From Granulicella sp. (lineage in GTDB: Bacteria > Acidobacteriota > Terriglobia > Terriglobales > Acidobacteriaceae), in contig JANYLK010000031.1 of assembly GCA_025357875.1 (NCBI GenBank), forward strand, positions 1 to 64,000: a stretch of DNA of 64,000 nucleotides, given 5' to 3'. Shown here piece by piece: positions 9,664-54,270 of the stretch; within the stretch, counting starts at the first letter, position 1, and each line of letters begins with the position of its first letter. The translations under genes and the position numbers were made by a program. The notes under the pieces are model-generated. The model did no database searches and had not been told where the DNA came from. It saw nothing but the letters and a program-made list of their open reading frames with translations.

Positions 9664-10446
9664 TTATCTTTCCGGTCTCGGTCCGGCGATCTGCAAGTTA
9701 TTAACTACGCTGAAAACTCCCGGCACCGTATTTGCCTGAATTCCCGCCACGTCGTGATCCATCTTGCTATCAACCACGCCCGCTAACGTCACGTGTCCAT
9801 TGACCACAATGATGCGAATAGGCTTCGCGGGATCCATTGCGTACCTTTGCAACTGGGGAGTTCCATAGATGACCTGTGCCAATTGCCGACGCAATCCGTC
9901 ATCCATAGGCGAAACCGGCGCGATTTCCAGGTTGTCGACTATGTCCTTTACGCCTGGCGTATTGCCAACGAGGCCAAGTGCCGAACCCTTATCAGTGGGT
10001 CCGTATACCATTCCGCCAAGCGTTACCACGCCGTTTTGTACACCTATGTTGATCGCGTTGAAAGCGGTCGTCCCGTATCCGACTCGGTCGTAGGAAAGTT
10101 CTTTCGCCAGCTTGTTGCGAAGCGCCTCATCCGCTACGGATACCCCAGCAATCTCGATCCCGTTCTCGACCGCCTTGACTTTCTTAACATGATGGACACG
10201 ACGGTCCGCGTCTTCCTTCTCTGCATACACGTTCACTGTCCCCGACAACGCTACGTTGCCGTCATGCACAGAGGCGGTTACATTCTGAAATCGTTTGTTG
10301 CCGAGAGCCTTATGCACATCCGCAGAAATTTGCGAATCGTTCGGCCCATCCGCTCTCGCTGTGCTTATGCCCCAAGGGCTGACTCCGATCAGCATAGCAC
10401 TCAGTACAATTGTGCCTGCACCGAGCAGGCCGTTTTTCGTGGACAT
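9664..10446 (-). CDS. Exported BON-domain protein with three BON repeats
   Basis: A 260-residue protein with a signal peptide (1 to about 34, ending ARADGP) and three BON domains at about 40-100, 105-170 and 185-255. Each has the pattern of a helix followed by 'G-x-V-x-L-x-G-x-V' strands (DGNVALSGTVN, NGVVTLGGMVY, NGHVTLAGVVD) and a closing 'V-x-x-V-x-N-x-L/I'. BON domains are thought to bind phospholipid, as in OsmY and DolP, so a periplasmic or outer-membrane maintenance role is likely. The longer frame is rejected because AAAGGAGAG precedes the ATG at 10446. Confidence 0.85.
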   Translation of the reverse strand: MSTKNGLLGAGTIVLSAMLIGVSPWGISTARADGPNDSQISADVHKALGNKRFQNVTASVHDGNVALSGTVNVYAEKEDADRRVHHVKKVKAVENGIEIAGVSVADEALRNKLAKELSYDRVGYGTTAFNAINIGVQNGVVTLGGMVYGPTDKGSALGLVGNTPGVKDIVDNLEIAPVSPMDDGLRRQLAQVIYGTPQLQRYAMDPAKPIRIIVVNGHVTLAGVVDSKMDHDVAGIQANTVPGVFSVVNNLQIAGPRPER

Positions 10447-10602
10447 GTAGCTCTCCTTTTTGACATCTGATCCTGTCACTTTGACAAGACATTGACGCAA
10501 CCAGCACCCTAGGTGACCATCCGATAACAACCCATTTGACGCATATACGTGCGAGAAGTTTTCTTTTTACGACAGAGCTGTTTCACACGCTCAACAGTGC
10601 CG

Positions 10603-13600
10603 TTAGTGGTATCGCCGACGTATCTTGTAAACGACGCTGAACACACCCGACTCGTCGCGCGCGACCACCAGCGATACATTCGGCGTGAGATCGTACTGCG
10701 CTTGCAACAGTTGCTGCGCTGTAGAGTTTACGTTCGTCGCGTAGGTTACGGAGAGCTGTCGCGAGAGCTGCTTCTGCACCGTGATCCGGGCCGTGGAATT
10801 GCCTAGCGTTCCGACGAATGCTGGGTCGATCTTCACCGTACCTCCGCCGAACAACTTTCCGATTCGATTGCTGACCGTAGCATTCAGCGCGCCGCCAAGC
10901 AGAGCGCTGGTAGTCGGATTTACTCCCGCCTGCACCTGCTGCTCCGAGTAAAGCTGCGCCTCTTCCTGCGTTCGCCCAAGGGCAAGCAGCGCAAAAATGT
11001 CTGCCTCACTCAATGGTGGCTCGGAGCGGTAGGTTGGCTTCAGGTTGCTCATCGTTCCTTGCAGGCCCACCGTGACGTCATACGTCTCCACCCGCGCTGT
11101 CGCGTTGATGTCGACCGTGGGATCAATTCGTACGGGATTGCTGAAATAGATGTCTCCGCGTTGCAACTCGTACTTCGTCCCGGCGAAAGTAGCGCTTCCG
11201 TCGGTAATTTGAATACGGCCAAGGATGGATGGCTCCGCAACTGTGCCGCGCACTGTCAGGTTGACGTTGCCAGCCAGCTTGGCATAAGTATTCTGGAAGT
11301 CTAATTGCGGGGAACTTGTGACATGCACATCCAGCCTGATCTTGTTCGCGGCAGAGGTAGGGTCAGGCGGCGAACTCACACCACCTGCGGACGAAAATGC
11401 CGCAAAGTCGACATCAGGGCCTACACCAAAGCGCGTAATCAATACGTTTCCGCTTAGCAGTAGGCTGTCCGGACCGCCTTGCAGTGTCAGGCTGGTATTC
11501 GCGGTGGTACTCAATCCATAGAGCCTAACGCGCACTACATCACCGATCGCCGTAAGGTTGGCATAAATCCCATTCTTATAAGTCAGGAAGCCGCCGATTT
11601 TCAACTGGCCGCCGCCCGTCGTCGCTGTGAGACTCTCCACCTGCAATCGATCTTCGTTGAAGACTAGTGTTCCGTTTATCGCGCTCAGCCCGTTCGGAAT
11701 TCCTTCCATCGCTACATTGACGTTGTCGAACTGTACCTTGCCAGTCAGCGACGGCTTCTTCATCTGGCCGCCTGCGGCGATCGTAAATTGCACCTTGCCG
11801 CTCGACAGGAGGTCGGGGTCGAACGTGTGCGCAAGCGCCACGCTGATGCTTCCGTTCGCCTTAAGGTCCAGCTTGGCGCCGTTCGGGTCAGTAGCACCGA
11901 ACGCCTGCACGGTACCGCTAATCTGCAAGTCAGTATCCTGACCTGTAATGTGAATCTGGTCGAGCGTTGCCAGTCCATTTCTCAGACTTATCCGCAACTG
12001 GCCTGCACTCTTTAGTTCGACGCCTTCAAGTTTTACATCGAAGTCGCTTAACTCCGCGTTCCCGCTCAATTTGACCGGAGTCTTCAGCGGACCACTCACA
12101 TTCACCACGCCGCCAATCGATGACTGTGCCTTCATATTCGAGGGACTGAACAGTGCAAGCGGCTTGCCGATATCCAACCCTGCAATCGTCAGCTTGGCTT
12201 GCGTCTCATAATCACCCGTCAACCGTGTCTGTCCGGACGCGTCGATCTGTGCGCCAACCAGCGTGGACTTCGCTGTGTACAGCAGCAGGTTGCCCTCGCT
12301 ATGCACATCGGCCGACATCGTGCCAATCGCCTTGCCATCCACCGTGGCTCCGGCCAGTTTCAGTGTGGCCCTCAATCCCGGTTGCTCGATCGTGCCATTC
12401 GCGTCCGCTATCAGCGTCAGCGTTCCATCGGCGTTTGGCATCGCCTTGGCAATTGTCTGAAATTTTGACAACACGAGGTTGTTGCCCTCGAGATGCGCAT
12501 GTACATGCTTAGAGGTCATATCATAGCCGCCATTGCCAGCGAGCTTTGCTCCATGCAGTACCAGCGCAACCTGACTGGCTTCGATATCCTGCCCTTTCAC
12601 GGAAAGATCGACCACGGCAGTGTCGTATGGCTCGCCATACGCAACTCCGTTGTTCAGCGAAACTTTTCCTTGACCATTCAATTTTGCGAGCGTCCCCGAC
12701 ACCTTGGCGTCGACCGATACAGTTCCCGTAATCGGATACTTCTGCTGCTGTCCCGCGATTTGGAGAACGTCCACGAAGCTTGCGTTGGCCAGCTGAACCG
12801 ACGCATCCACAATCGTTCCGTCGTCCCAAACGTACGTGGCCAGGCCCTTGCCCCCGAATGTCTTGCGAGGCTTCATGCTTCCAGCCAGATTCAACACCGC
12901 AGTCCCACGCTTAATGATAGAACTTGCTACAGCCAAACCCTCATCGATAGAGAACTCAGCATCCATCACCGCTGAATCAATTAACGTATCCAGTTCGGTG
13001 CCCAACTTGACCTCAAGGGCCGTACCCTGCAAGTGTCCCTTCACATTCAGATCTGCTGCACGGCCTTTTGCCGTTCCGTGGAAAACCAACCCGCCGTGCA
13101 GCACTACCGGAATCGCTGACGCACCCTTCTTTCCGTTCGCCTTGAAGTCCAGCGTCTGCAGCAACTGATCGAACTCTCCGAGATCGCTCACCGTCATGTC
13201 CACTTTCAAATCGGTGAGAGGATCACCCTGATTGACGCCAACGATTCCGCTTCCTTCTATCGTCGATTGCGGCGTCAGCAGAATCGCATGCTGCAAAACC
13301 ACAACCTCCCGCTTCCCATCGTAGTGGCCGACAACCTCGCCATTCACTGGAACATTGTTGATCGCGCCCTTACGCGACTTGCCCGTGGGCCGAAGCTTCA
13401 AATTTGCGGCCACTTCAACCGTGTCCGCAACATTCGCCACCGGGCCGCCCCACTCAGCCTTCACCGGTCCAGAGACTGCCGTATCGAACCCGAGGTCGGC
13501 GTAGCCCTTCGTCTCCGTGATTTCCATAATGGTGCGCAGCGGAATCGCATTCACTGTCGCAATCAGGTACGCGTGGGCCGTGACCTGCGGAATCTTTGCC

Positions 13601-15018
13601 GCCGCTACAGTCGCAGTCGGCTTTGCGCCCACCGCTACGGCAGTCTTGTTTGCTGTGGTCACCGCACCCACCACTGTTGGCGATTTCGCGGGAGCAGCCG
13701 CGGCCGTTTCGCCCAGCCAGTTCACAATACGCAACTCGCCAGCCGCGCTTCCGCCTCCCGGAAGATAGCCACTCAATGCAGTGAGAAGAAGTTCCGTGGG
13801 CGTGATGTGCAGCTCGCCGCCACCCTCGATGTCGTGCAGCCTCACATTGGAGTTCTCGTAACCCGCGCCATGCAGCTTCGCATTTCCCACCATCAGGTAT
13901 CCGGCCTTGCATCCGGGATCAGGAGGCAGTGGAACTGTACCCGGCTTCGCAGGAGTTACAGGAAGCTTTCTTCGCCAGAAACGTGGATGCGTCTGCGCCA
14001 CCACTGGAGACACCGAGCAGCTATGACCGGCGATTACTAGATCGACCCTCCCGGCCGTCAAGCCTTCCGCCCCAGTCAGCACCGTGATTTGCCTCAACTC
14101 AAGGGTTCCATCTGCCTTGATCTGCCAGTCGGGCTCCGCGAAATGATGAACCTCTCCAGTCGCGCGTAGCACCGAAGCCTTGCCTGAATCGAACTCGAAC
14201 TTCGTCAACTGTGCGGCGTCACGTCCAAGCTCCGCGTCGACGTGCAACTTCGACTGCGCCTGAGGCTGTTTGTCCATCTTGGTCCGCAGGTCATTCAGAT
14301 CGACCACGAAGCCGTATCGGTCAGTCAGACTCAAATAATCAATCCTGACATTCAAATCGCGTGCAGCTACATCGAAAGGAATTGCCCGGTCGTTGAATAA
14401 CGCAACACCATTATCCAGTCGCACTTGATTCGCTCGCAGGTCGAGCAGCGTATCCTGCAGCGATTCCGTGCTCGTGGTCGGATGTTTCGGCACAGGCTGA
14501 TTGGTCCTGCCATGCTTGTCGATGATCAGATGAACCTGCGGATGCTCGACCCTCAACATGTTCAGCCCCACGTGGGACTGCATTCCGGTTCCCGTGCTAT
14601 GGGCGAAGAAACTCCTGATTTTTAATCGGAGCTGGATCTTGTCCGCGGCGAGATATGGCGCTTCGCCCGCCCCCTCTAGTCCGTGAATCACCAAGCCATT
14701 CACCTCAATTGCCAGATGCCACAAGCTAAAGGCAACACCATGCACCTCGACCCGGCCACCGGTCGCGTTCTCTAATACGGACACAATCTCCTTACTCACG
14801 CGATGCTGGAAATCTTCGGTCGTCGAATACCAGGAGACGCCGGCGATCAGCACGATCAGCAGCACTATTACTCCAAGCAGAAACCACGCCAACTTCCGCC
14901 CCAGACGGCTTGAAGCGCTGCTATTCCTTACTGACGACACCGCAGATCTGTTCCGCGGTGTAGGATTCTCACCACCGGACGGGGTGCCGGCATTGGGCTG
15001 GTTATCGTCCATGCTCAT
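10603..15018 (-). CDS. tamB: TamB/AsmA-like translocation and assembly module protein (DUF490)
   Basis: A 1471-residue protein with an N-terminal Pro/Asn/Ser-rich cytoplasmic tail, one membrane anchor at about 44-64, an AsmA-like start ('VLENATGGRVEVHGVAF'), and then a very long periplasmic beta-rich repeat region. The conserved DUF490/TamB domain ends it, with 'PSILGRIQITDGSATFAGTKYELQRG' (as a region), 'EADIFALLALGRT' and a final 'NVSLVVARDESG'. TamB-type proteins bridge the inner and outer membranes and carry lipids or assist TamA/BamA. An Ala-rich low-complexity patch lies at about residues 440-475. The gene overlaps the surA-like stop as ATGA, has GGAGAGGAGG before its start, and belongs to the bamA-surA-tamB cluster. 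Confidence 0.92.
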   Translation of the reverse strand: MSMDDNQPNAGTPSGGENPTPRNRSAVSSVRNSSASSRLGRKLAWFLLGVIVLLIVLIAGVSWYSTTEDFQHRVSKEIVSVLENATGGRVEVHGVAFSLWHLAIEVNGLVIHGLEGAGEAPYLAADKIQLRLKIRSFFAHSTGTGMQSHVGLNMLRVEHPQVHLIIDKHGRTNQPVPKHPTTSTESLQDTLLDLRANQVRLDNGVALFNDRAIPFDVAARDLNVRIDYLSLTDRYGFVVDLNDLRTKMDKQPQAQSKLHVDAELGRDAAQLTKFEFDSGKASVLRATGEVHHFAEPDWQIKADGTLELRQITVLTGAEGLTAGRVDLVIAGHSCSVSPVVAQTHPRFWRRKLPVTPAKPGTVPLPPDPGCKAGYLMVGNAKLHGAGYENSNVRLHDIEGGGELHITPTELLLTALSGYLPGGGSAAGELRIVNWLGETAAAAPAKSPTVVGAVTTANKTAVAVGAKPTATVAAAKIPQVTAHAYLIATVNAIPLRTIMEITETKGYADLGFDTAVSGPVKAEWGGPVANVADTVEVAANLKLRPTGKSRKGAINNVPVNGEVVGHYDGKREVVVLQHAILLTPQSTIEGSGIVGVNQGDPLTDLKVDMTVSDLGEFDQLLQTLDFKANGKKGASAIPVVLHGGLVFHGTAKGRAADLNVKGHLQGTALEVKLGTELDTLIDSAVMDAEFSIDEGLAVASSIIKRGTAVLNLAGSMKPRKTFGGKGLATYVWDDGTIVDASVQLANASFVDVLQIAGQQQKYPITGTVSVDAKVSGTLAKLNGQGKVSLNNGVAYGEPYDTAVVDLSVKGQDIEASQVALVLHGAKLAGNGGYDMTSKHVHAHLEGNNLVLSKFQTIAKAMPNADGTLTLIADANGTIEQPGLRATLKLAGATVDGKAIGTMSADVHSEGNLLLYTAKSTLVGAQIDASGQTRLTGDYETQAKLTIAGLDIGKPLALFSPSNMKAQSSIGGVVNVSGPLKTPVKLSGNAELSDFDVKLEGVELKSAGQLRISLRNGLATLDQIHITGQDTDLQISGTVQAFGATDPNGAKLDLKANGSISVALAHTFDPDLLSSGKVQFTIAAGGQMKKPSLTGKVQFDNVNVAMEGIPNGLSAINGTLVFNEDRLQVESLTATTGGGQLKIGGFLTYKNGIYANLTAIGDVVRVRLYGLSTTANTSLTLQGGPDSLLLSGNVLITRFGVGPDVDFAAFSSAGGVSSPPDPTSAANKIRLDVHVTSSPQLDFQNTYAKLAGNVNLTVRGTVAEPSILGRIQITDGSATFAGTKYELQRGDIYFSNPVRIDPTVDINATARVETYDVTVGLQGTMSNLKPTYRSEPPLSEADIFALLALGRTQEEAQLYSEQQVQAGVNPTTSALLGGALNATVSNRIGKLFGGGTVKIDPAFVGTLGNSTARITVQKQLSRQLSVTYATNVNSTAQQLLQAQYDLTPNVSLVVARDESGVFSVVYKIRRRYH

Positions 15019-15803
15019 GGCGCCTCCTCTCCGGGCTTTAATATCCGCACGCTACCCTGCACGCGCAATGCTGCCAGCCAATCATCCAGAAGCGTATCCA
15101 CCCGTTGCTGCAGCAGTATCTCCTGGATCCGGTCTGCAATTGTCCCCTCCGCCGGAGCCGGAGCCTTCTCTTTCTGATACGCCGGAACTATGGTCTTGGT
15201 GTAATACTGGTCGACGTCCGCCGGCACAATACGAATGCCCATCCGGAACCGCTCCTCGATAAAGCGCAGCACTTCGATGCGCTGCCTCCAGCGCTCTGTG
15301 AGTTCGTCCAGCGTGAATCCCTGGTCTTCAACAAATTTCTTCCATCCATCTTCGGTGTCGCAGTGGTACGCCGCACACTTTGGTATCAACTTCCGCAGTG
15401 TGGCCAACTCAGCATTCACTTCAGTGTCCGTCACCGGAGGGCTCGGTTGCAGCGCCATCTGTTGGAAGATCAAAGCACGATCGATCAGTCGATCGATCAA
15501 CTTATCCCGCGAAACCGGATGAGGTTCGCTGGTTGGGTGAAACGCCGCGAAGCGCTCCTCAGCGTCCACATCGCTCTGCAGAACCAGATCACTATTAACA
15601 ATCGCAACCACGCGATCCAGGATGATTGGGTCGGCCGTCGGTGACGCCTTCCCGCTGGAATCTACTGCAGTATTAGCCAGCGGCTGGATCGCGGGCAATT
15701 GAGCACACGCAGGGATCAGCAGCAGCAGCATAATCGCCAAACTACCCACAATCCGCGACAACCGCTTCAACTGATCCGCAACCCTATGTCCCAATGCATT
15801 CAT
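15015..15803 (-). CDS. SurA-like periplasmic chaperone lacking the parvulin domain
   Basis: A 262-residue protein with a signal peptide (about 1-35, hydrophobic core 'IVGSLAIMLLLLIPACAQ') and a SurA N-terminal core beginning 'ILDRVVAIVNSDLVLQSDVD', followed by a helical bundle (SRDKLIDRLIDRALIFQQM) and a C-terminal helix returning to the fold. SurA carries unfolded outer-membrane proteins to BamA. Full SurA has one or two PPIase (parvulin) domains of about 100 residues; none is seen here, and 'YYTKTIVPAYQKE' leads directly to the last helix. This would be a chaperone without isomerase activity. It is between the bamA-like and tamB genes, two bases from the former, and overlaps tamB. Confidence 0.83.
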   Translation of the reverse strand: MNALGHRVADQLKRLSRIVGSLAIMLLLLIPACAQLPAIQPLANTAVDSSGKASPTADPIILDRVVAIVNSDLVLQSDVDAEERFAAFHPTSEPHPVSRDKLIDRLIDRALIFQQMALQPSPPVTDTEVNAELATLRKLIPKCAAYHCDTEDGWKKFVEDQGFTLDELTERWRQRIEVLRFIEERFRMGIRIVPADVDQYYTKTIVPAYQKEKAPAPAEGTIADRIQEILLQQRVDTLLDDWLAALRVQGSVRILKPGEEAP

Positions 15804-15805
15804 GC

Positions 15806-18800
15806 TTAGAACGCCTGTCCAATACTGAAGAAGAAGTTGAAGTGCCCCACCTGACCCTCATACGGCTTCGCGTTGTTGAAGTCGTAAATAACCGGATATA
15901 CCGGCGGATTTAGGTTGTAACTGAAATCGACACGAATAGGGCCGACCGCCGTCTTATACCGAGCGCCGACCCCAATTGCATGTGAAAAATAGTTAAAGTT
16001 GCAAGTTCCAAACGGAAACGCCTTCGTCACTGCCACATTCGCGCATGTCGACTGGTCTGGTTGATGAAAATGCGTAAAGCTGGGGAACATATCCGAGACA
16101 TGCGCGAAGGCATTTCCCATGTCGTGGAAGATGACGAAGTTCACGCTGTCTCCAACAATCGGAAGCGTCGGCGCGGGCAGCCGAAGCTCCGTGTTGTTGA
16201 TGAAGACCGCACTGCCACCCACTGGAAAGCCCGTCTGCAGGTCGCGAGGTCCCGCATCATTGATGCCAAATCCGCGGTGCGAAGTCGCGCCTCCGGCATA
16301 CAGTCGCTCGGGCAGAGGCACTGCGTTGCAGCCCGCGTTCGTGTCCAGAAGGACGCCAATACAGCTTGGACTGCCCACGTTCGGGTTTGAACCAAAGGGA
16401 ATTTCAAATCCGATGCGCGTATTCCGAGCCAGCACATACTTATGTTTTCCAAACATATAATATGTGGCGTTGGTCACGTCCGTCCGGTTGAAACTCACCT
16501 GCGAACCGAACGCCGAACCTGCGAAGAACTCCTGCACCGACGTGTACGATCCCCGCTCCGCGTCCAGCGGACTGGGATCTCTGGTGTCGTGAAACCATGT
16601 GATCCCTGGACCGCCGACTCGCACCGGCTGCGACAGTTGTGGAATCAGGTTGAACGATACCTGTAGGGTTCCAGGGTTAACCGCTACTCTGCGAAACTCA
16701 AAGTTATAGATGAACGTGTCGGCCCGCTTCACCTTCTGCGTGATGCGATAGTCCGCCTGCAGCGTCGATGCCTGAAACGTAGAAATATTCTGCACGTTCG
16801 AGTAGCCGCCCGACACGCTCATCGAAAGCCTGTCCTTGCCGAACAGATGAGGATTCTGAAAAGTCAGCGTAGCCACCTCTTCCAGCAACCCGTAGCTCGC
16901 ATGCAGCGTCAGCGAGTTGTCCGTTCCGCGCAGATTGATCCGGCTTACGTCCACCGAGACTCGAGGGCTCACACCCGTTTTGCCGTTTTGCGAATACGCC
17001 GCATTCGGAGGCAAGCCAAGTGAAATAGCCGTTGCTGCATTGAGCACGCCCTTTTTGGGAGTGCCTGTCTGCGCCTCCAGTCCGAACCCATACGTCACGT
17101 CCCATCGCCGCGCTTCGGTCAATTGCAGCAACACGTTCTTCAGCGAATCGTCTCCGTCCGGATTTTGAACCGCCGTGTTCACCTGGTTGAACAACGCAAG
17201 GTCATACAGCCTCCGCTGCGTGTCCAGCAGTGCGCTCTGATCAAGAGGCTCCCCGGCATGAACCTTCACCCGTCTCGCCACAACCGCCGGCTTGGTATGG
17301 ACGATCCCCGTCAGCAGAACCTTGTCCACGAAGACCTGCTGGCCTTCCGAGACATTCAGCGCCACATTGGTCTTGTGTGTCTCTCCGTCCTCTACTTGCT
17401 GCTTGACCTCAATTCTCACCTGCGCAAATCCGTGACTCAGATAATAGCCAAGGATTGCGTCACGATCGCCGGACAAAGTGATCAACGAGTAGGGCTGGCC
17501 CTCCTCCGAGTTCAGTAACGCCTTTACGTCCTTCTCGCGGCTTCTATCTACTCCATCGAATTTCACCGTGCCAAACTTCTGCTGAGGCCCTTCCGTCACC
17601 GTAACCTTCACATCGATCTGAGCGACCTTCAGTGGCTTTCCGGATGGCGACACATCCACATCTTTAGGTGTCGATGCGATTGAGGCTCCGATAAATCCAT
17701 TCGCACGATATAGCCCTAGAATTGACGCCTCATCTGACCTCATTAAAGCCGGAGAATAGCGTCCGTTCCGCAAATACAGGTCGGCCTTCTGCACTCGCAT
17801 CCGTTCCTTCAACAAATCAGTCTCAAAGTACTTATTGCCAGCGATCATTACCGATTTAACCTTGTGTTTGATGCCCTTATCGACTGCATACACTACGTGT
17901 TCCGACGGCGTGTCTTCGCCAATCACCCTCACCGTCACCGTAGCGTCAAAATAGCCGGCCTGAAAGAGGTAATCTTTGATGTTGAAGGTACCTTCGTTCA
18001 GCAGATCGTTGTCAATCGTTCCTTCCTCGTAAATTGGCACAAGAAGTTGGAGGCGACTCTTAGAAAGCTTCACCCCTTCAACCGAAACCTTCACCAACGG
18101 CCCCTGATTCGCGTTAAAGTCGTAATCCACCTGCTTCCGCGGCGGGCTATAAGTCTGCTTCCGAAGTGATGTTGTCGCCTCCAGTCGGTCCTTCTTCTCA
18201 TACTGCGCGCGCAGTCGGGTCAGCGCATTGCTGACCGTATCGCGGTTCACTTTGGTACCCTGCATCAGCTTTCCCCTCTTACGAATCTCAGCGACCGTCA
18301 GTCCGGGGTAGTCGCCTGCCAGCGTAATCTGGCCAACCCGCGCCTGAGGCCCAATGTTCACCGAGTAGGTAGCGTTCACTTGCCCTCCAGCCTCATCTAC
18401 CGTCGTCGTCGCAGTGATCGTCGGCTGAAAATACCCGCTGCTTTCAAGCGACTGCCGAACCCCTTCCGTTCCCGCTGAAATCATCGACTGCGTGAATTGC
18501 GTTCCCGGCTGCAGCTTAGTCGCGTATTCCAGTAGCGAGGCCAGCCGCTCCTGCTTTACTCCGATAATCTGCACGCGGCCGACAAAGTAGCGCGCTTTCC
18601 CCATGTAGACCAGCGTCACGCCGTCGCCCACGCGCCTGCCACTCACGCTGATGTCGCGATATTTTCCGCTCGCGAACAGCTTGCGTACACTCGAGGTCAC
18701 CTTCGCCGGGTCGAGCGCGTGGCCCACCTGCTGCGGAAGCTGCGCTGGCAGCGGGTCCTTCGGGTCGAAGCTGACGCCTTGAAATTCGATGTTCTCAACG

Positions 18801-19261
18801 CGCAGACCCTTCCACGCGGAAAGACTTTGCTTTGCCACAGCGACCGACTTTGCCTCATCAGTAGCCTGCGTCGTCGCCACGGCCTGCACCGACGGGCTGG
18901 CTGACGTCACCTTACCCGGAGGCGACGACGCGTTTGGTGGAGCTGTTGAAGGCGGCCCCGATTGAGCGCCATTGGCAGTGCCGAGGTTGGCAGGCGTGGG
19001 CGTTTTCACGTCTTCGCTGGACGCGGAGGGGGTGCCGGGCATGGATTGCCCGTACGCATCCACGATGCCGCCCAGCCCTGCGCATATGACCAGAAGTACA
19101 GCTGCAAATCCACAAGCCGCCGCACAACCACGCCGGATGTGCACATCCCGCACGTCACGCGCGCTGGTTAGGACGACCCTTCCAGTCACTACTTCTAATG
19201 AAACACCCAACGAACTGTCCTCTGGCTCTTGCCGGATACTGTGACTCTGCGAAACACCCAT
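15806..19261 (-). CDS. BamA/TamA-type outer membrane assembly protein with several POTRA domains
   Basis: An Omp85 protein of about 1151 residues. It begins with a basic stretch and one hydrophobic export segment, a Pro/Ser/Thr-rich linker, then at least five POTRA units (for example 'VENIEFQGVSF', 'KVSVEGVKLS', 'HKVKSVMIAGNKYF', 'KFGTVKFDGVDRS', 'FVDKVLLTGIVHT') and a 16-strand type barrel with 'RLYAGGATSHRGFG', the conserved lid-loop R-G-F-G. The protein ends in phenylalanine (IGQAF), the usual outer-membrane signature. It folds or inserts outer-membrane proteins, probably with the SurA-like and TamB genes next to it. The start is uncertain: ATG 19261 lacks a good ribosome-binding site, and the frame is open to 19390. 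Confidence 0.9.
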   Translation of the reverse strand: MGVSQSHSIRQEPEDSSLGVSLEVVTGRVVLTSARDVRDVHIRRGCAAACGFAAVLLVICAGLGGIVDAYGQSMPGTPSASSEDVKTPTPANLGTANGAQSGPPSTAPPNASSPPGKVTSASPSVQAVATTQATDEAKSVAVAKQSLSAWKGLRVENIEFQGVSFDPKDPLPAQLPQQVGHALDPAKVTSSVRKLFASGKYRDISVSGRRVGDGVTLVYMGKARYFVGRVQIIGVKQERLASLLEYATKLQPGTQFTQSMISAGTEGVRQSLESSGYFQPTITATTTVDEAGGQVNATYSVNIGPQARVGQITLAGDYPGLTVAEIRKRGKLMQGTKVNRDTVSNALTRLRAQYEKKDRLEATTSLRKQTYSPPRKQVDYDFNANQGPLVKVSVEGVKLSKSRLQLLVPIYEEGTIDNDLLNEGTFNIKDYLFQAGYFDATVTVRVIGEDTPSEHVVYAVDKGIKHKVKSVMIAGNKYFETDLLKERMRVQKADLYLRNGRYSPALMRSDEASILGLYRANGFIGASIASTPKDVDVSPSGKPLKVAQIDVKVTVTEGPQQKFGTVKFDGVDRSREKDVKALLNSEEGQPYSLITLSGDRDAILGYYLSHGFAQVRIEVKQQVEDGETHKTNVALNVSEGQQVFVDKVLLTGIVHTKPAVVARRVKVHAGEPLDQSALLDTQRRLYDLALFNQVNTAVQNPDGDDSLKNVLLQLTEARRWDVTYGFGLEAQTGTPKKGVLNAATAISLGLPPNAAYSQNGKTGVSPRVSVDVSRINLRGTDNSLTLHASYGLLEEVATLTFQNPHLFGKDRLSMSVSGGYSNVQNISTFQASTLQADYRITQKVKRADTFIYNFEFRRVAVNPGTLQVSFNLIPQLSQPVRVGGPGITWFHDTRDPSPLDAERGSYTSVQEFFAGSAFGSQVSFNRTDVTNATYYMFGKHKYVLARNTRIGFEIPFGSNPNVGSPSCIGVLLDTNAGCNAVPLPERLYAGGATSHRGFGINDAGPRDLQTGFPVGGSAVFINNTELRLPAPTLPIVGDSVNFVIFHDMGNAFAHVSDMFPSFTHFHQPDQSTCANVAVTKAFPFGTCNFNYFSHAIGVGARYKTAVGPIRVDFSYNLNPPVYPVIYDFNNAKPYEGQVGHFNFFFSIGQAF

Positions 19262-27278: not shown

Positions 27279-27953
27279 CTACTCTGCCACCTGCGCCCCA
27301 TTGCTTGCAATCCGCACCAGCGCCGGACGCAGTAGTTTATCGCGAATCTTGTACCCGCGCCGTATCTCTTCCAGCACTTGGTGATCGGGAAACTCAGTCG
27401 TTTCGATGCTCCCCAAAGCCTCATGGATTCTGGGGTCGAACTGAGCTCCCGCCGTCTCAATCACTTGCACATTCAATCCACGCAGGGCCTCTTCCATCTG
27501 CTTCAGAATCAGTTCCACTCCAGCGCGTAGTTGCTCCAGCGTTCCATCCGACTTCAGCGCCAGTTGAAAGTTGTCCATCACACCCAGAAACGGCTCAACC
27601 GCATTCTGCACTGCATAATCCCGCAAGTCCGCCCGCTCTTTCACATCGCGTCTGCGCGCATTCTCAAACTCCGCCTGCAACCGCGCTAGCCGATCCAGCA
27701 ACTGATCCCGCTCGCCGCGCACCTGCTCCAACTCCGCCCTCAACGACACAACCGGATCGGCACTTCCCTCCCCACCGGCATTGGTCGTGTCCGAACCTCC
27801 CACCTGCGAGGCATCCAGTTCCGACTCGTTCTCCTCAGTTCCCTGCACCATCGCCTCCTCTGCCATCTCGTCGCCAATTCCTGTGGAACTGCCGTCTCTA
27901 CTATTGTTGCCGATTCCAGCCCATCGCGCGACTTTCTCCCACTCCCCAGCCAT
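27279..27953 (-). CDS. grpE: Nucleotide exchange factor GrpE
   Basis: A 224-residue GrpE, which releases ADP from DnaK. It has an acidic disordered N-terminus to about 70, a long coiled helix ('LRAELEQVRGERDQLLDRLARLQAEFENARRR' as a region, about 75-110), then 'VEPFLGVMDNFQLAL' and the beta domain with 'GAQFDPRIHEALGSIET' and 'RRGYKIRDKLLRPALVRIA'. Longer than the usual 190 residues because of the acidic start; GAGGGCGAG precedes the ATG at 27953, but ATG 27866 would also give a normal GrpE. It is located between hrcA and dnaJ. Confidence 0.95.
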   Translation of the reverse strand: MAGEWEKVARWAGIGNNSRDGSSTGIGDEMAEEAMVQGTEENESELDASQVGGSDTTNAGGEGSADPVVSLRAELEQVRGERDQLLDRLARLQAEFENARRRDVKERADLRDYAVQNAVEPFLGVMDNFQLALKSDGTLEQLRAGVELILKQMEEALRGLNVQVIETAGAQFDPRIHEALGSIETTEFPDHQVLEEIRRGYKIRDKLLRPALVRIASNGAQVAE

Positions 27954-48417: not shown

Positions 48418-48879
48418 CTACCTGACTTTTGGAGTCTTCGGGCTTTTGGCAGTAACGACCGCACTCTTTGGCAGGGGTGGTTTGCCGGACGCGACGACCC
48501 TATGGGGAACAATGGCTGGACGCGGCATCGGCACCAGTCCTGCACCTGGCTGCTGCTGCTGCTGCATTCGCGCCAGCATTTCAGTCCGTACATAATCCAC
48601 GAAACCCTGCATCTGCCGGTTCATCTCCTCCATGCGCTCGCGCATCTGCAACACGATCGCAATGCCGGCGATGTTTACACCAAGATCCCGCGCAAGATTG
48701 AGAATGAACTCCAGTCGTTCTAAATCCTCATCGGTGTAGAGCCGCGTATTGCCGTCGGAGCGACTGGGCAGCAACAAACCCTCGCGCTCATAGAGTCGCA
48801 GCGTCTGCGGATGAATCTCATACATCTCGGCCACCGCCGAGATCATGTACGCGCCCTTCGACTTTCGCTTCGTCGCCAT
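48418..48879 (-). CDS. hspR: MerR-family heat-shock regulator HspR
   Basis: A 153-residue MerR-type regulator. The DNA-binding part reads 'AYMISAVAEMYEIHPQTLRLYEREGLLLPSRSDGNTRLYTDEDLERL' as a region (about 10-58), which is the HspR form, followed by 'ILNLARDLGVNIAGIAIVLQM' and a coiled coil. A Gln run and a basic Pro/Lys tail follow. HspR represses dnaK-type operons through HAIR sites (CTTGAGT-N7-ACTCAAG) with DnaK as co-repressor. dnaJ and dnaK genes 1-5 kb away on the same strand are plausible targets, but I see no complete HAIR. ATG 48879 is supported by GAGGCGA. Confidence 0.87.
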   Translation of the reverse strand: MATKRKSKGAYMISAVAEMYEIHPQTLRLYEREGLLLPSRSDGNTRLYTDEDLERLEFILNLARDLGVNIAGIAIVLQMRERMEEMNRQMQGFVDYVRTEMLARMQQQQQPGAGLVPMPRPAIVPHRVVASGKPPLPKSAVVTAKSPKTPKVR

Positions 48880-48947
48880 AAATCGTCGCCTCGAACTATC
48901 GCCCAAGCATACCGCGAGCAGGCAGCGATGTGCATCCAGATTAGTCT

Positions 48948-49963
48948 ATGTTCCACTCACGCAAATCTCCTGTCCTCGCCGCTGCGGGCGTCGCAGTAGC
49001 CGGGGCCGCTGTAGTCGACGCCGTCGCATCAGTCGGTGCCACTGCATTCGCTATCCGGGCTCTACGTAGTCAGCCTTTTCCTGATGATGCCGTGGTGCTC
49101 ATTACCGGTGGATCGCGCGGTCTAGGGCTGGCCATCGCCTCACGCTTTGCTGGCCGGCCTGTCCGCCTCGTCCTTGCCGCGCGCAATCGCGACGAACTCG
49201 AGCGTGCGCCGGCCACGTTCCTGGATCGGACCCCAACCTCCGGCCTGAAGATTTCTATCTCGTCGCTGCGGACCTCAGCCACCAGTCCGAATGTAGCCGT
49301 CTGGTTGCGGAGACGCTTGCCCGCTTCGGCCACATCGACGTGCTTGTGAATAACGCCGGCATTATCGAGATCGGTCCAGTCGAAGCCCAGACAACGGAAG
49401 CTTTCGAACGCTGCCTCAAAGTCAATTTCCTTGCGTCCGTCTACACAATCTGAGCGGCTCTGCCCTACCTTCGCTCGCAGGCTCCACTTTCCGGGTGGAA
49501 TCGACACGCCGCCATCGTCAACATCGCCAGCATAGGAGGCAAATTCGCAGTGCCGCACATGCTTCCGTATTCGACGAGCAAGTTCGCGCTGGTCGGCTTC
49601 TCAAAAGAACTGTATGTTGAACTCCGCCACAAGGGCATTCACGTCACGACCGTGTGTCCGGGCCTGATGCGCCCCGGCGGAGAAGACCACGCGGAATTCG
49701 TGGGTAACGCGGAAGCCGAACGCGCATGGTTCAACCTCGCCGCCAAGACACCAGGAATTGCAACGACGGCGGAACACTCCGCCAATTGCATCTACTCCGC
49801 TGTAGCCGCAGGTCGCGCCAAAATTACGATCACGCCGCAGGCCTGGTTGAATGCCCGCACGGCTGGACTGTTGCTAGGATCTACGCAATTCGCGGCGAGC
49901 CTGGGAAATCATTTCATATTGCCAGCCTCACCCGATAACTCAAAATCTAACGAGTTCGATTAG
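48948..49963 (+). pseudogene. Short-chain dehydrogenase/reductase, broken by one frameshift and one TGA
   Basis: Frame 3 gives an N-terminal helix and the cofactor motif '[19 protein letters not shown]' up to 'RNRDELERA'. Near 49210-49235 the homology moves to frame 2: '[20 protein letters not shown]', '[20 protein letters not shown]' and 'FLASVYTI', where a TGA (49451-49453) stands at the position of an expected Trp. The same frame goes on to 'AALPYLRSQ', 'YSTSKFALVGFSKELYVEL' with the Y-x3-K catalytic pair, and the normal end at 49963. Without the two lesions it would be a complete SDR of about 335 residues. The end overlaps dnaJ2 by four bases. Confidence 0.85.
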
Positions 49964-51204
49964 ACCTCTGCCAGCAACTCCGCACGTGGATCTTCGGGGT
50001 TCAGCTTCGCCAGCTCGCGGAGTATCTCCTTAGACCGCTCATCCTGAACCTTGGGCACCACAATTTTCACTTCGACGATCTCGTCTCCACGCAGACCCTC
50101 CCGCAAGGCGCTGGGTACGCCCTTCTCGCGCAGCCGAAGCTTCTGGCCGGTCTGAGTTCCTGGAGGAATTTTCAATTGCGTCCGACCGCCGCCGTCATGC
50201 GTGTCGATGGTCGGCACTTCAATCTTCGCGCCCAGCGCGGCTTCGGTCATCGTAACTGGAACGGTTACATGAATATCGTCGCCTACGCGCGCAAACACTG
50301 GGTGCGTCCCCACCTTAACAATCAGGAAAAGGTCGCCCGCCGACCCGCCGTCCGTGCCTGCATTTCCCTTCCCTGCAAGCCGAATCCTCTGGCCATCGCG
50401 CGTGCCCGCCTTGATGCGAAACTCCAGCGGCTCCCGCCTGGTTACCACGCCTTCGCCGTCGCAGATCGCGCATCCGCTCTGCACCTTGCCGGTGCCATTG
50501 CAGCGTGGACACTGGATATTAAACTTCATTCGGCCGCCCATTTGGGTTACCTGGCCAGTGCCAGTGCATTCAGGACACTCGGAGCTACCGCCGGTGGTCG
50601 ACTTGCCTTTGCATGTTGGACACGTCTCCTGCCGCTGAATGTCCAGCCGCGCCACACCACCGCGCACCGCCGACCAGAAGTCCACGCTCACCTGATATTC
50701 GAGATCAGTGCCGGGCCGCGACCCACGAGCCTTCTGCCCGCCTGAAAACATCCCGCCAAAGATGTCTTTGAAACTTCCTCCGAAGCCGCTGCTCGCCGGT
50801 TCCTGCGCTCCGCCACGACCACGGCCTCCACCTTGGAAGCCCGAGAAGTCGAAGCCGCCAAAGTCGAATGGAACTTCCTGCCCGCCTCGCGCGCCCGGCC
50901 TCGCGCCCCCGCCTGCGAATCCCCCTCCGCCGTATCCTCCACGCGCGGCAGCTTCGGCTGCAGCCGGATCGATGTTGTCAGAATAGAAACCGAGCTGGTC
51001 GTAAATCTTGCGCTTCTTCTCGTCGCTTAGAACATCGTTGGCTTCAGAGATTTCCTTAAACTTCTCTTCCGACTTCTTGTCGTTCGGGTTCACATCGGGG
51101 TGATATTTGCGCGCAAGTTTGCGGAAAGCCTTACGAATTTCGTCCGAGGTCGCCGCCTTCTTCACGCCAAGCGTACTGTAGTAGTCCTTTGTCTGTGTCG
51201 CCAT
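49960..51204 (-). CDS. dnaJ: DnaJ-type chaperone, second copy, very glycine-rich linker
   Basis: A 414-residue DnaJ. J domain 5-70 with HPD in '[10 protein letters not shown]'. The linker (about 85-155) is unusually long and Gly/Phe-rich ([20 protein letters not shown] and [19 protein letters not shown]). Four zinc repeats follow ([32 protein letters not shown]), and the substrate sheets end '[19 protein letters not shown]'. The first zinc repeat lacks the final Gly. It belongs with dnaK 1 kb upstream on the same strand. A strong hairpin at 51247 separates it from the small genes. Confidence 0.94.
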
Positions 51205-51246
51205 TTACGTTCTTGCGCCTCTAAATACCACTCACCTGCACACTCT

Positions 51247-51276
51247 AAAAAAGGCGCGGCCTAAGCCGCGCCTTTT
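51247..51276 (-). terminator. Perfect hairpin terminator between the small gene and dnaJ2
   Basis: AAAAGGCGCGGC and GCCGCGCCTTTT are exact reverse complements around CTAA. On the minus strand the stem is followed by a run of six T, so it ends transcription of the small genes about 40 bases after the 51318 stop and shields dnaJ2. Confidence 0.85.
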
Positions 51277-51317
51277 CCATAAACCGATCATTCCAGCATT
51301 CTTTATACGCACAGCAG

Positions 51318-51488
51318 TCAGTTCCAAACCTGCCGCGCATCAATGGCCTCGATGGAAATCGTTTGATCCGGCTCCATCTGCCGCATCCGGTTCATAAACT
51401 GCTCGGCCTCCTCGCGCGTATCAAACATCATCCGGTTATACAACTGTCCGGCGCGAACCTGGTCACACCGCCACATCGTCTCTGTCAT
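51318..51488 (-). CDS. Small hypothetical protein, paralogue A of a tandem pair
   Basis: A 56-residue protein starting MTETMWRCDQVRAGQLYNRM and ending EAIDARQVWN. A GGAGG site is 8 bases before its ATG, and the terminator follows the stop. It aligns over its full length with the 57-residue protein at 51752-51925: M-T-x-x...W-x-C-x-Q, a central helix with E-E/Q-A-x-x-F/Y, M-x-P-D and the identical last three residues V-W-N. The family is not one I can name. The pattern (W, C, M-rich middle, beta ending) suggests a single small alpha/beta fold, perhaps a regulator or adaptor of the neighbouring chaperones; that is inference. Confidence 0.75.
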   Translation of the reverse strand: MTETMWRCDQVRAGQLYNRMMFDTREEAEQFMNRMRQMEPDQTISIEAIDARQVWN

Positions 51489-51751
51489 AAGCTTCGCCTC
51501 CAGAAATCCGATTGAGTTCCAGGTTCTGTTATCCAGCTCTTTTGTCCAGCTATCTGCTCAGCATTTCCGCTTCAGATGCGTCGTGACTTCAAAGAGTTTT
51601 CAGGCAAACAGGGCAGGCATCTCCACAAAGTAACTTCTCGTTTTTGTTTGATCCAATGTCTCACGTCCAGTTCGCACTTCACAGCTTAACCAGTCCAATA
51701 CCTGTGGGGAACCAGCCTGAATTCCCCCAACGCGAATTTCCTTGCCGACAG

Positions 51752-51925
51752 CTAATTCCATACATGCTGTATCGGCATCGGCTCGATCTTGAATACGAGG
51801 TCGGGAGACATTCCGGCAAGTTTACGCACATACTCGCGCGCCTGCTGTTCACTCATGAATACGTTCTGCTCTTTCACCTTGCCGCCTAGCCACTGCTCGC
51901 ACATCCAAACCGTCTGTTGCGTCAT
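51752..51925 (-). CDS. Small hypothetical protein, paralogue B of a tandem pair
   Basis: A 57-residue protein starting MTQQTVWMCEQWLGGKVKEQ, with a helix 'SEQQAREYVRKLAGMSPDLV' and ending PMPIQHVWN. AGGAGGTGG precedes the ATG at 51925, which is why I reject the longer reading from 51997. Roughly one third identical to paralogue A 263 bases downstream, with the same length and the same VWN end. It is 150 bases after dnaK, beyond a hairpin, so it may have its own promoter. Function unknown. Confidence 0.75.
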   Translation of the reverse strand: MTQQTVWMCEQWLGGKVKEQNVFMSEQQAREYVRKLAGMSPDLVFKIEPMPIQHVWN

Positions 51926-51978
51926 GCCACCACCTCCTGAGTCCTTAGACCTGAACCTCAAACCTTGGACTCTATACA

Positions 51979-52012
51979 AGAAGAGCGCTCCGACCACCGC
52001 GAGCGCCCTTCC
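51979..52012 (-). terminator. Hairpin terminator after dnaK
   Basis: AAGAGCGCTC and GAGCGCCCTT form a 10-bp stem with one mismatch around a 10-base loop. On the minus strand the arm ends CTCTT and a T-rich CTTGTAT follows. It lies 64 bases past the dnaK stop. Confidence 0.6.
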
Positions 52013-52075
52013 CCATCGCCTTACTTATTGGATGCGGGACCGGCCTGCTGCGACTGCAACCGATCCCGCTATCCT

Positions 52076-53992
52076 TTACTTCTCTACGTCCACGTACTCC
52101 GCGTCAATCACACCTTCGTCCTTCTTTGCCTCTTCATGCGTCTCTGCAGTACCCTCAGCCGGCGCGCCTTCTGCCGGAGGAGCAGCTGCAGCCGCCTTGT
52201 ACATCGCTTCGGCCAGCTTGTGGCTGGCAGCAGTTAGATGGTCCTTCGAGCTAATCAGCTCAGTCGCACTCGGATCGCCCGAAAGCGTTGTCTTAGCCTC
52301 GGCCAGCGCAGTCTCAACTTCAGTCTTGTCCGCCTCAGCCACCTTGTCGCCCGAGTCCTTCAGCATCTTCTCGACGTTGTAAACCAGCGAGTCGAGCCCG
52401 TTCTTCGCCTCCACCTTATCGCGCTGCTCCTTGTCCTCGGCCGCGTGAGATTCGGCGTCCTTCGCCATCCGCTCAACCTCTTCCTTGCTTAGACCTGAAG
52501 AACTGGTAATGGTGATCTTCGCGTCCTTGCCGGTGGCGTTATCCTTCGCCGTCACGTTCAGGATGCCGTTGGCGTCGATGTCGAACGTCACCGCAATCTG
52601 CGGAACGCCACGCGGAGCAGTCGGAATCCCGCCCAGCTTGAACTTACCCAGCGTGCGATTCTGCGCTGCCATCGGGCGCTCGCCCTGCATCACGTGTACC
52701 TCAACCTCGGTCTGGTTATCCGCCGCCGTCGAGAACGTCTCCGTCTTCTTCGTTGGAATGGTCGTGTTGCGCGCGATCATGCTTGTCGCCACGCCGCCCA
52801 TCGTCTCGATAGAGAGCGTCAGCGGAGTCACGTCAAGCAGCAGCAGGTCCTTTACATCGCCCGCTAGAACGCCCGCCTGAACCGCCGCGCCAATCGCGAC
52901 AACTTCATCCGGATTGACGCCCTTGTGAGGCTCCTTGCCGAACAGCTTCTTCACTAATTCCTGAATCGCCGGCATCCTCGTCTGTCCGCCAACCAGCACT
53001 ACCTCGTCTATCTTCGACGCATCGATACCGGCATCCTTCAACGCCTGCTTCGACGGCCCAACCGACTTCTGCAGCAGATCGTCGACCAGGGATTCAAGCT
53101 TCGCGCGGGTCAGGTTGCGCACTAGATGCTTTGGGCCACTCGCATCGGCAGTGATGAAGGGGAGGTTAATCTCCGACTCCTGTGCCGTCGAAAGCTCGAT
53201 CTTCGCCTTCTCAGCCGCATCCTTCAGACGCTGTAGCGCCATCTCATTGCCCTTGGCATGCAGATCGAGGCCGGTATCTGATTTGAACTCGCCAATCAGC
53301 CAATCCACGATGCGCTGGTCGAGATTGTCGCCGCCAAGGTGTGTGTCACCATTAGTCGATTTGACCTCGATGACGCCTTCGCCAACTTCAAGGATGGAGA
53401 TATCGAACGTTCCGCCGCCGAAGTCATACACAGCAATGGTTTCGTCCTTCTTCTTGTCCAGCCCATACGCGAGCGCTGCCGCCGTCGGCTCGTTCACAAT
53501 ACGCTTGACGTCGAGGCCCGCAATCTTGCCAGCGTCCTTGGTCGCCTGCCGCTGCGCGTCGTTGAAGTACGCAGGCACGGTGATGACCGCTTCAGTCACA
53601 GACTGGCCGAGATAGTCCTCCGCCGCCTTCTTCAGCTTCTGCAGGATCATCGCCGAAATCTCCGGCGCCGTGTACTCCTTGCCCTGAGCCATCACGCCGA
53701 CGTTATCGCCCTTCGAGACGACCTTGTAAGGCACCATCTTCAATTCATCGCCAACCTCGTTCATCCGGCGTCCCATGAACCGCTTGATCGAATAAACCGT
53801 GTTCTCGGGGTTGGTAATCGCCTGCCGCTTGGCTACAGTGCCGACCAGCCGTTCGCCGCTCTTGGTAAACGCGACAATTGACGGCGTGGTGCGTCCACCC
53901 TCCTCATTCGCAATGACTTTCGGCTCGCCGCCTTCCATCACCGCGACGCAGCTGTTGGTCGTACCCAGATCAATTCCAATAATCTTTCCCAT
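52076..53992 (-). CDS. dnaK: Chaperone protein DnaK (Hsp70)
   Basis: A 638-residue Hsp70. Nucleotide-binding domain 1 to about 385: '[19 protein letters not shown]', '[16 protein letters not shown]', '[14 protein letters not shown]', '[14 protein letters not shown]'. Linker '[19 protein letters not shown]', substrate domain with '[19 protein letters not shown]', and a lid. The C-terminus is an Ala/Pro-rich tail ending EYVDVEK rather than the common EEVDKK. The ATG at 53992 has GAGGAGC before it; the five extra codons to 54007 are unlikely. dnaJ2, hspR and the tandem small genes lie downstream on the same strand. Confidence 0.97.
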
Positions 53993-54270
53993 ATCCCTGC
54001 TCCTCAACCCAGAATTTGTTCTAAACCCCTGAAAACCGCGCTTTAAACTGTCGGCGTACGCCTGTGTTTTACAATTCCCAACTTATCCAGTCTCACATAT
54101 GAGTCACTTACTGTCAACCTATCTGATGCAATTGATATAGCTAAGGATGCTATTGATTGGATTTGCTGGGTCGCGATAATTTTCACGAAATGGCAATTAG
54201 GGCTTCACTGAACTGGCTGCCTGGATAGGCAATATTCCACGGCCATCCTCTCGGCATCCGCTGCTCGAAA

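Follow-up and report, generated by a model that had tools for sequence, protein, structure and literature searches.

A pair of small genes behind dnaK appears to represent a new protein family of Acidobacteriaceae, possibly accessory to the DnaK chaperone system

Two small genes of a Granulicella genome, here called cpA and cpB, are in our reading old paralogues of a new small-protein family whose members are accessories of the DnaK chaperone system in Acidobacteriaceae, and we give this reading about even chances of being right. DnaK is among the best-studied proteins, and to our knowledge new families of small DnaK partners are rare. A tiny uncharacterised gene behind dnaK is a hint that a helper or regulator of protein folding has been overlooked, in this case in a bacterial group that is common in soils. 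The names cpA and cpB, and fam2 and fam3 for two other families found at the same site, were coined in this analysis; cp denotes the family of cpA and cpB, and the window is the whole stretch of 64,000 nucleotides that was analysed.

All window features cited here lie on the minus strand. In the order of that strand, dnaK (52076–53992) is followed by cpB (51752–51925; type B, 57 aa, MTQQTVWMCEQW...IQHVWN), cpA (51318–51488; type A, 56 aa, MTETMWRCDQV...ARQVWN), a perfect inverted repeat with a T run (51249–51276), dnaJ (49960–51204) and a gene for an HspR-like MerR repressor (48418–48906). The dnaK and dnaJ genes were assigned by Pfam/NCBIfam profile matches; the MerR gene scored 99.8 bits with the HspR model, below its cut-off of 105. 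The two cp genes were assigned by homology and by alignment of the pair, cpB also by its place in a tree. A preliminary description of this DNA had proposed two tiny paralogous genes between dnaK and dnaJ, with strong ribosome-binding sites and a terminator beside dnaJ. This layout is borne out: inspection showed GGAGG in front of cpA and AGGAGG in front of cpB, and the terminator corresponds to the repeat at 51249–51276. The remark in the same description that one of the genes is too short for the usual gene callers is probably wrong, since common callers accept about 30 codons.

Judged by their sequences, cpA and cpB are true paralogues. BLASTP aligned them with 15 of 54 residues identical (28%; E=3e-12 for that single comparison), and the shared W-x-C-x-Q, M-x-P-D and VWN-stop motifs that had been described for the pair are indeed common to both. 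A search of the window's own genome for cp found just these two copies. In a tree of cp sequences, all 21 type-B proteins fell on one side of a branch with support 100/100 (80 of 99 sequences after removal of near-identical ones, 56 columns, midpoint root, most inner forks weak). Their sources are genomes of the window's genus that have two copies, and the genus g48, in which each genome gave a single cp match. Because the type-B copies form one group with this support, the split between cpA and cpB is old and not a recent tandem duplication. The earlier notion of a duplicated micro-family has to be amended: the split is old, and 22 of the 36 positive genomes of the genus have one match, the other 14 having two or more. 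That different lineages have lost one or the other copy suggests that the roles of cpA and cpB overlap. In one locus (L019, genome G008), cpB is frameshifted (about 1989–2158) and cpA is intact.

A search with a two-sequence profile was positive for cp in 36 of the 37 genomes sampled from the window's genus, the sole negative being a genome that is 63% complete (G004); a weak partial match away from dnaK in G020 (34 residues, E 0.008) was counted as chance. Among 250 genomes drawn from Acidobacteriaceae, 85 were positive, from 20 of 79 genera. In a sample of 297 genomes from the phylum, where in many genomes the best 21–22 first-look candidates were scored for each of the three families, at least 22 carried cp, at least four fam3 and at least one fam2, and all of the positives were Acidobacteriaceae. 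Named records with cp include Granulicella, Edaphobacter, Acidipila, Silvibacterium, Paracidobacterium and Acidobacterium. Two loci titled Rhodanobacteraceae (L123, L124) show typical Acidobacteriaceae cp-dnaJ regions, L124 with dnaK as well, and are probably mislabelled bins.

The first set of loci yielded 100 distinct cp homologues. Not counted among them are three second-stretch rows of about 1 bit (L008, L032, L124), two sequences that lack the W-x-C string (L088, L062) and three for which no start codon lies within the permitted range (L044, L066, L068). A broad Shine-Dalgarno-like string precedes 97 of the 100 genes, and the core GGAG/GAGG/AGGA precedes 87. The proteins end in Trp-Asn in 99 cases, the exception being the frameshifted copy in L019, and all of 33 further cp sequences end in the same way. 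Median dN/dS, calculated with a simple Nei-Gojobori script and without saturated pairs, was 0.157 for type A (68 sequences; 765 of 2278 pairs saturated and dropped) and 0.176 for type B (23 sequences; 127 of 253 pairs comparable, 106 unsaturated). The cp genes are under purifying selection, and these data show cpA and cpB to be real, selected protein genes.

The position of cp is nearly constant. The regions of all 85 positive family genomes were examined, three of them via named contigs whose coordinates are identical (L092, L096, L106), and in 83 cp lies on the same strand less than 700 bp behind dnaK; where a genome has two copies, cpB was counted as the first. The preliminary description implied that homologues should lie near chaperone genes in other genomes, and the association turned out stronger than claimed. 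If distinct genes from the first locus set are counted, 93 of 99 cp genes lie 88–385 bp from dnaK. The other six, with too little upstream sequence, are one gene at a contig edge and five second copies in short loci; longer loci of these five show dnaK and cpB upstream. The genes for dnaJ and hspR follow cp at variable distance, often kilobases away and with other genes in between; hspR was seen downstream in 15 of the 20 loci L056–L075. Two genomes depart from the rule. One has a gap of 958 bp between dnaK and cp (G301), and the other (G224, locus L327) has no dnaK within about 9 kb upstream of cp, with dnaJ and hspR downstream as usual. The link between cp and dnaK is therefore very strong and not absolute. 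In the latter locus the upstream frames at 9671–19001 look ParB-like and relaxase-like by eye, so that cp and dnaK may have been separated there by an insertion of mobile DNA.

A protein of about 300 residues that starts MPEGNEIHRWAERH, and by eye resembles Nei/MutM DNA glycosylases, is encoded close to cp in four relatives; its gene lies between cpB and cpA in two of them (L073, 4891–5778; L075, 6296–7210) and between cp and dnaJ in the other two (L128, 7995–8897; L327, 7306–8220). Outside the family, we looked at eight loci, four from another family of the order and four from other families of the class. In seven of them dnaJ begins less than 200 bp after dnaK, and in the eighth (L164) about 450 bp separate the two genes and contain a frame of 71 codons.

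Inspection of the sequence 3' of dnaK in cp-negative genomes led to two more families of small proteins. The first, fam2 (consensus MKQYLVVK...LIQEVGxA), is present in 19 of the 250 family genomes, from 5 genera, and the second, fam3 (MQFEVNGQ.YFL...RIPVYVD), in 71 genomes from 30 genera (loci with either: L144, L145, L148, L149, L151, L157, L158, L168–L186, L188–L217, L290–L326). All 19 fam2 genomes have the gene on the same strand less than 700 bp behind dnaK, as do 70 of the 71 fam3 genomes, the last (G092) having it at 1016 bp. Two weak partial matches away from dnaK were left out as chance, one to fam2 (G216, 25 residues, E 8e-4) and one to fam3 within a frame of 299 residues (G142, E 3e-4); partial fam3 matches in G117 and G074 are second matches. 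Together, cp, fam2 and fam3 occur in 175 of 250 genomes and 55 of 79 genera, with no genus in common (the genus sets were compared by eye), and in 172 of the 175 genomes such a gene lies within 700 bp of dnaK.

Searches against known families gave no match for fam2 or fam3 (Pfam for two fam2 members). An hhalign comparison of fam2 with cp gave a probability of 86.6 (E 4.5e-6, 28 of 57 columns), and the fam2 model (pLDDT 82) has a strand-strand-helix-strand layout with the elements in the same order as in cp; fam2 is thus probably a distant relative of cp. An hhalign comparison of fam3 with cp found no similarity. Both families have C-terminal tails of their own, VGxA in fam2 and an Asn as last residue in fam3 (15 of 23 aligned members).

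Twenty-four genera have none of the three families. The end of dnaK is readable in 16 of them, and in five of these (L152, L156, L220, L223, L224) dnaJ begins less than 300 bp after dnaK, which implies that these genera can do without such a gene; the others have different sequence at this place. For the remaining eight genera no complete main dnaK was found, probably in part owing to the assemblies. With chances that we put a little below even, Acidobacteriaceae would keep a dedicated site for a small DnaK partner at which at least two unrelated families have replaced one another, each modulating Hsp70 in a lineage-specific manner and having a C-terminal tail of its own. If this is true, the alternation of cp, fam2 and fam3 would be a natural replacement series for what Hsp70 needs beyond DnaJ and GrpE.

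The same observations can be turned the other way. The cp proteins might be general stress proteins unrelated to DnaK biochemistry that merely use the strong transcription of dnaK, and a site that is also taken by fam3, with no detectable similarity to cp, would suit this explanation, as would the genome that has cp away from dnaK and the hairpins behind dnaK, which suggest attenuated read-through. We consider it unlikely, since a stress gene that is useful anywhere should have changed its place more often, whereas 83 of 85 genomes keep cp within 700 bp of dnaK and the search of the window's own genome found two copies only.

The hairpins were found with a home-made scan for a hairpin with a T-rich tail, which was positive in 54 of 85 distinct intergenic sequences between dnaK and cp, compared with 2% of base-shuffled ones; for fam2 and fam3 it was positive in 6 of 20 and 14 of 29 sequences. 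In the window, a terminator-like hairpin with a weak T tail lies between dnaK and cpB (51980–52013). A stricter generic scan of 51150–52150 reported no terminator and no sigma-70-like promoter; it passed over even the repeat at 51249–51276, probably because the stem of that repeat runs into its T run. Given the hairpins in 54 of 85 sequences, transcription of cp together with dnaK is not certain, and cp may be supplied either by read-through from dnaK or by a promoter of its own.

Two features of the leaders could suggest that the conserved entity is a nucleic-acid element, an attenuator or a 3' RNA of dnaK, with the open frames incidental. The 153-base leader between dnaK and cpB (51926–52078) gave three hairpins when folded (z -5.3 compared with shuffled sequences), of which the last adjoins the cpB ribosome-binding site on its 5' side, and a 17-nt element, AACCTGGAACTCAATCG (51509–51525), lies 5' of the cpA ribosome-binding site and hardly varies among most type-A genes of the genus. 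We find this explanation hardly credible in view of a dN/dS of about 0.16–0.18, the Trp-Asn end in 99 of 100 proteins and the Shine-Dalgarno-like strings in front of 97 of 100 genes. The 17-nt element was exact in 25 and present with at most two mismatches in 36 of the 100 distinct cp genes, all of type A. In 20 chosen leaders of the genus, 15 of its 17 bases are invariant and the flanking bases vary. A search of four genomes, with up to two mismatches, found a single match in front of cpA in every genome, and two of the genomes had three more matches between them, each with two mismatches; the element thus has the appearance of a cis-acting site that is almost confined to cpA. A search for an RNA structure of the element found none (3 pairs and no covariation), and Rfam gave nothing at gathering score on the window. 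We also considered that the element might encode an in-frame N-terminal extension; this was dropped because the distance to the start codon varies (-35 to -39 for exact copies) and the frame is not kept.

The dnaK promoter block of the window (TTGACA...ACTCATATGTGAGACT, 54085–54117) is strongly conserved among relatives (TTGACA...GTGACTCAAGGTGAGA, with ACTCA-type repeats). These repeats presumably resemble HspR operators, and the promoter is perhaps under HspR control. The cp proteins could then act on the repressor loop, in which HspR works with DnaK as helper, and not on folding itself. Such a role would be in keeping with the conserved repeats, with hspR downstream in 15 of 20 loci, with the genome in which cp retains dnaJ and hspR downstream while dnaK is gone from its side, and with Helicobacter, where the parts of the source available to us report that the chaperone CbpA modulates HspR (PMC7074700). 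We nevertheless judge it rather improbable, as the tight link is to dnaK, with dnaJ and hspR at variable and often kilobase distances, and as the HspR repeat of Streptomyces has no match at this locus including the dnaK promoter (4 matches with up to three mismatches in the window, 1.9 expected).

We next turn to the proteins themselves. An AlphaFold2 model of cp based on 71 homologues (pLDDT 90.6, pTM 0.71) predicts a compact beta-beta-alpha-beta fold with strands at residues 4–12, 15–22 and 43–50, a helix at 25–38 and a short C-terminal helix at 51–54; the proteins are small and probably cytosolic. Eight residues are invariant in the 71 aligned members (W6, C8, G14, F22, A28, P40, W55 and N56), and the strand with W-x-C-x-Q hardly varies. 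The invariant C8 might indicate a redox or metal sensor built on this residue. That seems very improbable to us, because it is the single conserved cysteine and is replaced by Phe in L088 and by Tyr in L062, both outside the 71-member alignment.

Profile searches of cp against Pfam, NCBIfam, PHROG and PDB sequences gave no match above cut-off, weak ones at best, which agrees with the preliminary view of an unrecognised family. DUF406/YiiS, in which a short F-x-T-x-E-E-A-x-x-F stretch resembles cp, and other weak profile matches were far below the curated cut-offs or had E >0.01. Foldseek with the cp model returned 0 matches against PDB at E<=0.001. The best VIA-align match, to the PII-like SbtB (Z 6.1), is inside the range that the tool calls common, and we do not claim membership in that family; the structural search gave no match pointing to a function. 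In the open-access literature (titles and abstract openings among the matches listed, subscription papers being mostly outside), no description of cp was apparent, and the available passages of an omics study of Granulicella WH15 (PMC7074687) make no mention of the cp genes. By these sequence comparisons, cp is an undescribed protein family of Acidobacteriaceae.

A DnaK-linked role of cp is well supported by position. Its constant location, mostly single copy and mutual exclusion with the other small families together point to a partner of DnaK, from which we infer a function as cofactor or stress regulator, as had been suggested. Such a protein would be produced together with DnaK, either because transcription passes the hairpin that follows dnaK or because cp has its own promoter. 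The cp domain might then bind DnaK or the DnaK-DnaJ pair through the face of the W-x-C-x-Q strand and the Trp-Asn tail, and once bound it could tune the ATPase or client cycle of the chaperone, which would feed back on HspR too. The roles of cpA and cpB probably overlapped, because different lineages kept A only or B only, and the presence of fam2 or fam3 at the same site elsewhere suggests a recurrent need for a small partner matched to DnaK. Against a partner of DnaK, it should be considered that position can persist by shared transcription without physical contact, that hairpins separate dnaK and cp in 54 of 85 sequences, that cp stands apart from dnaK in one genome (G224), and that the small gene is dispensable in five genera.

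The proposed accessory role can be compared with known systems. Actinobacterial operons have the order dnaK-grpE-dnaJ-hspR, where the GrpE gene follows dnaK and holds the interval before dnaJ, as cp does here. The cp proteins are far shorter than GrpE, and neither the pair nor 26 members match Pfam GrpE. A role as GrpE substitute was dropped, as the window itself has a GrpE gene (27306–27758), the sole one detected in the genome, at some 24 kb from dnaK. No match to the Pfam DnaJ domain was found in cpA, cpB or the 26 members either. A second comparison is offered by cbpM, which adjoins cbpA. In E. coli, CbpM is, according to the parts of the source available, a small regulator of the DnaK co-chaperone CbpA (PMC4063869), and the parallel with the presumed role of cp would be a functional one: CbpM is MerR-like and binds the J-domain of CbpA, whereas cp is a 56-residue protein encoded beside dnaK with a predicted strand-strand-helix-strand fold, and the NCBIfam CbpM model did not match cpA, cpB or 26 cp members. 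The third is Ruc (Rv0991c), described in the available parts of its source as a small redox-regulated chaperone that is co-regulated with the hsp60 and hsp70 genes, passes clients to the Hsp70 system, and has an N-terminal domain with four zinc-ligand cysteines and a disordered tail (PMC7448276). As a small protein that works with the DnaK system, Ruc may have a counterpart in cp. In contrast to Ruc, cp has at most one conserved cysteine (71 members) and is predicted to be folded throughout. The cp family is a member of neither CbpM nor Ruc, and these two are its nearest functional parallels.
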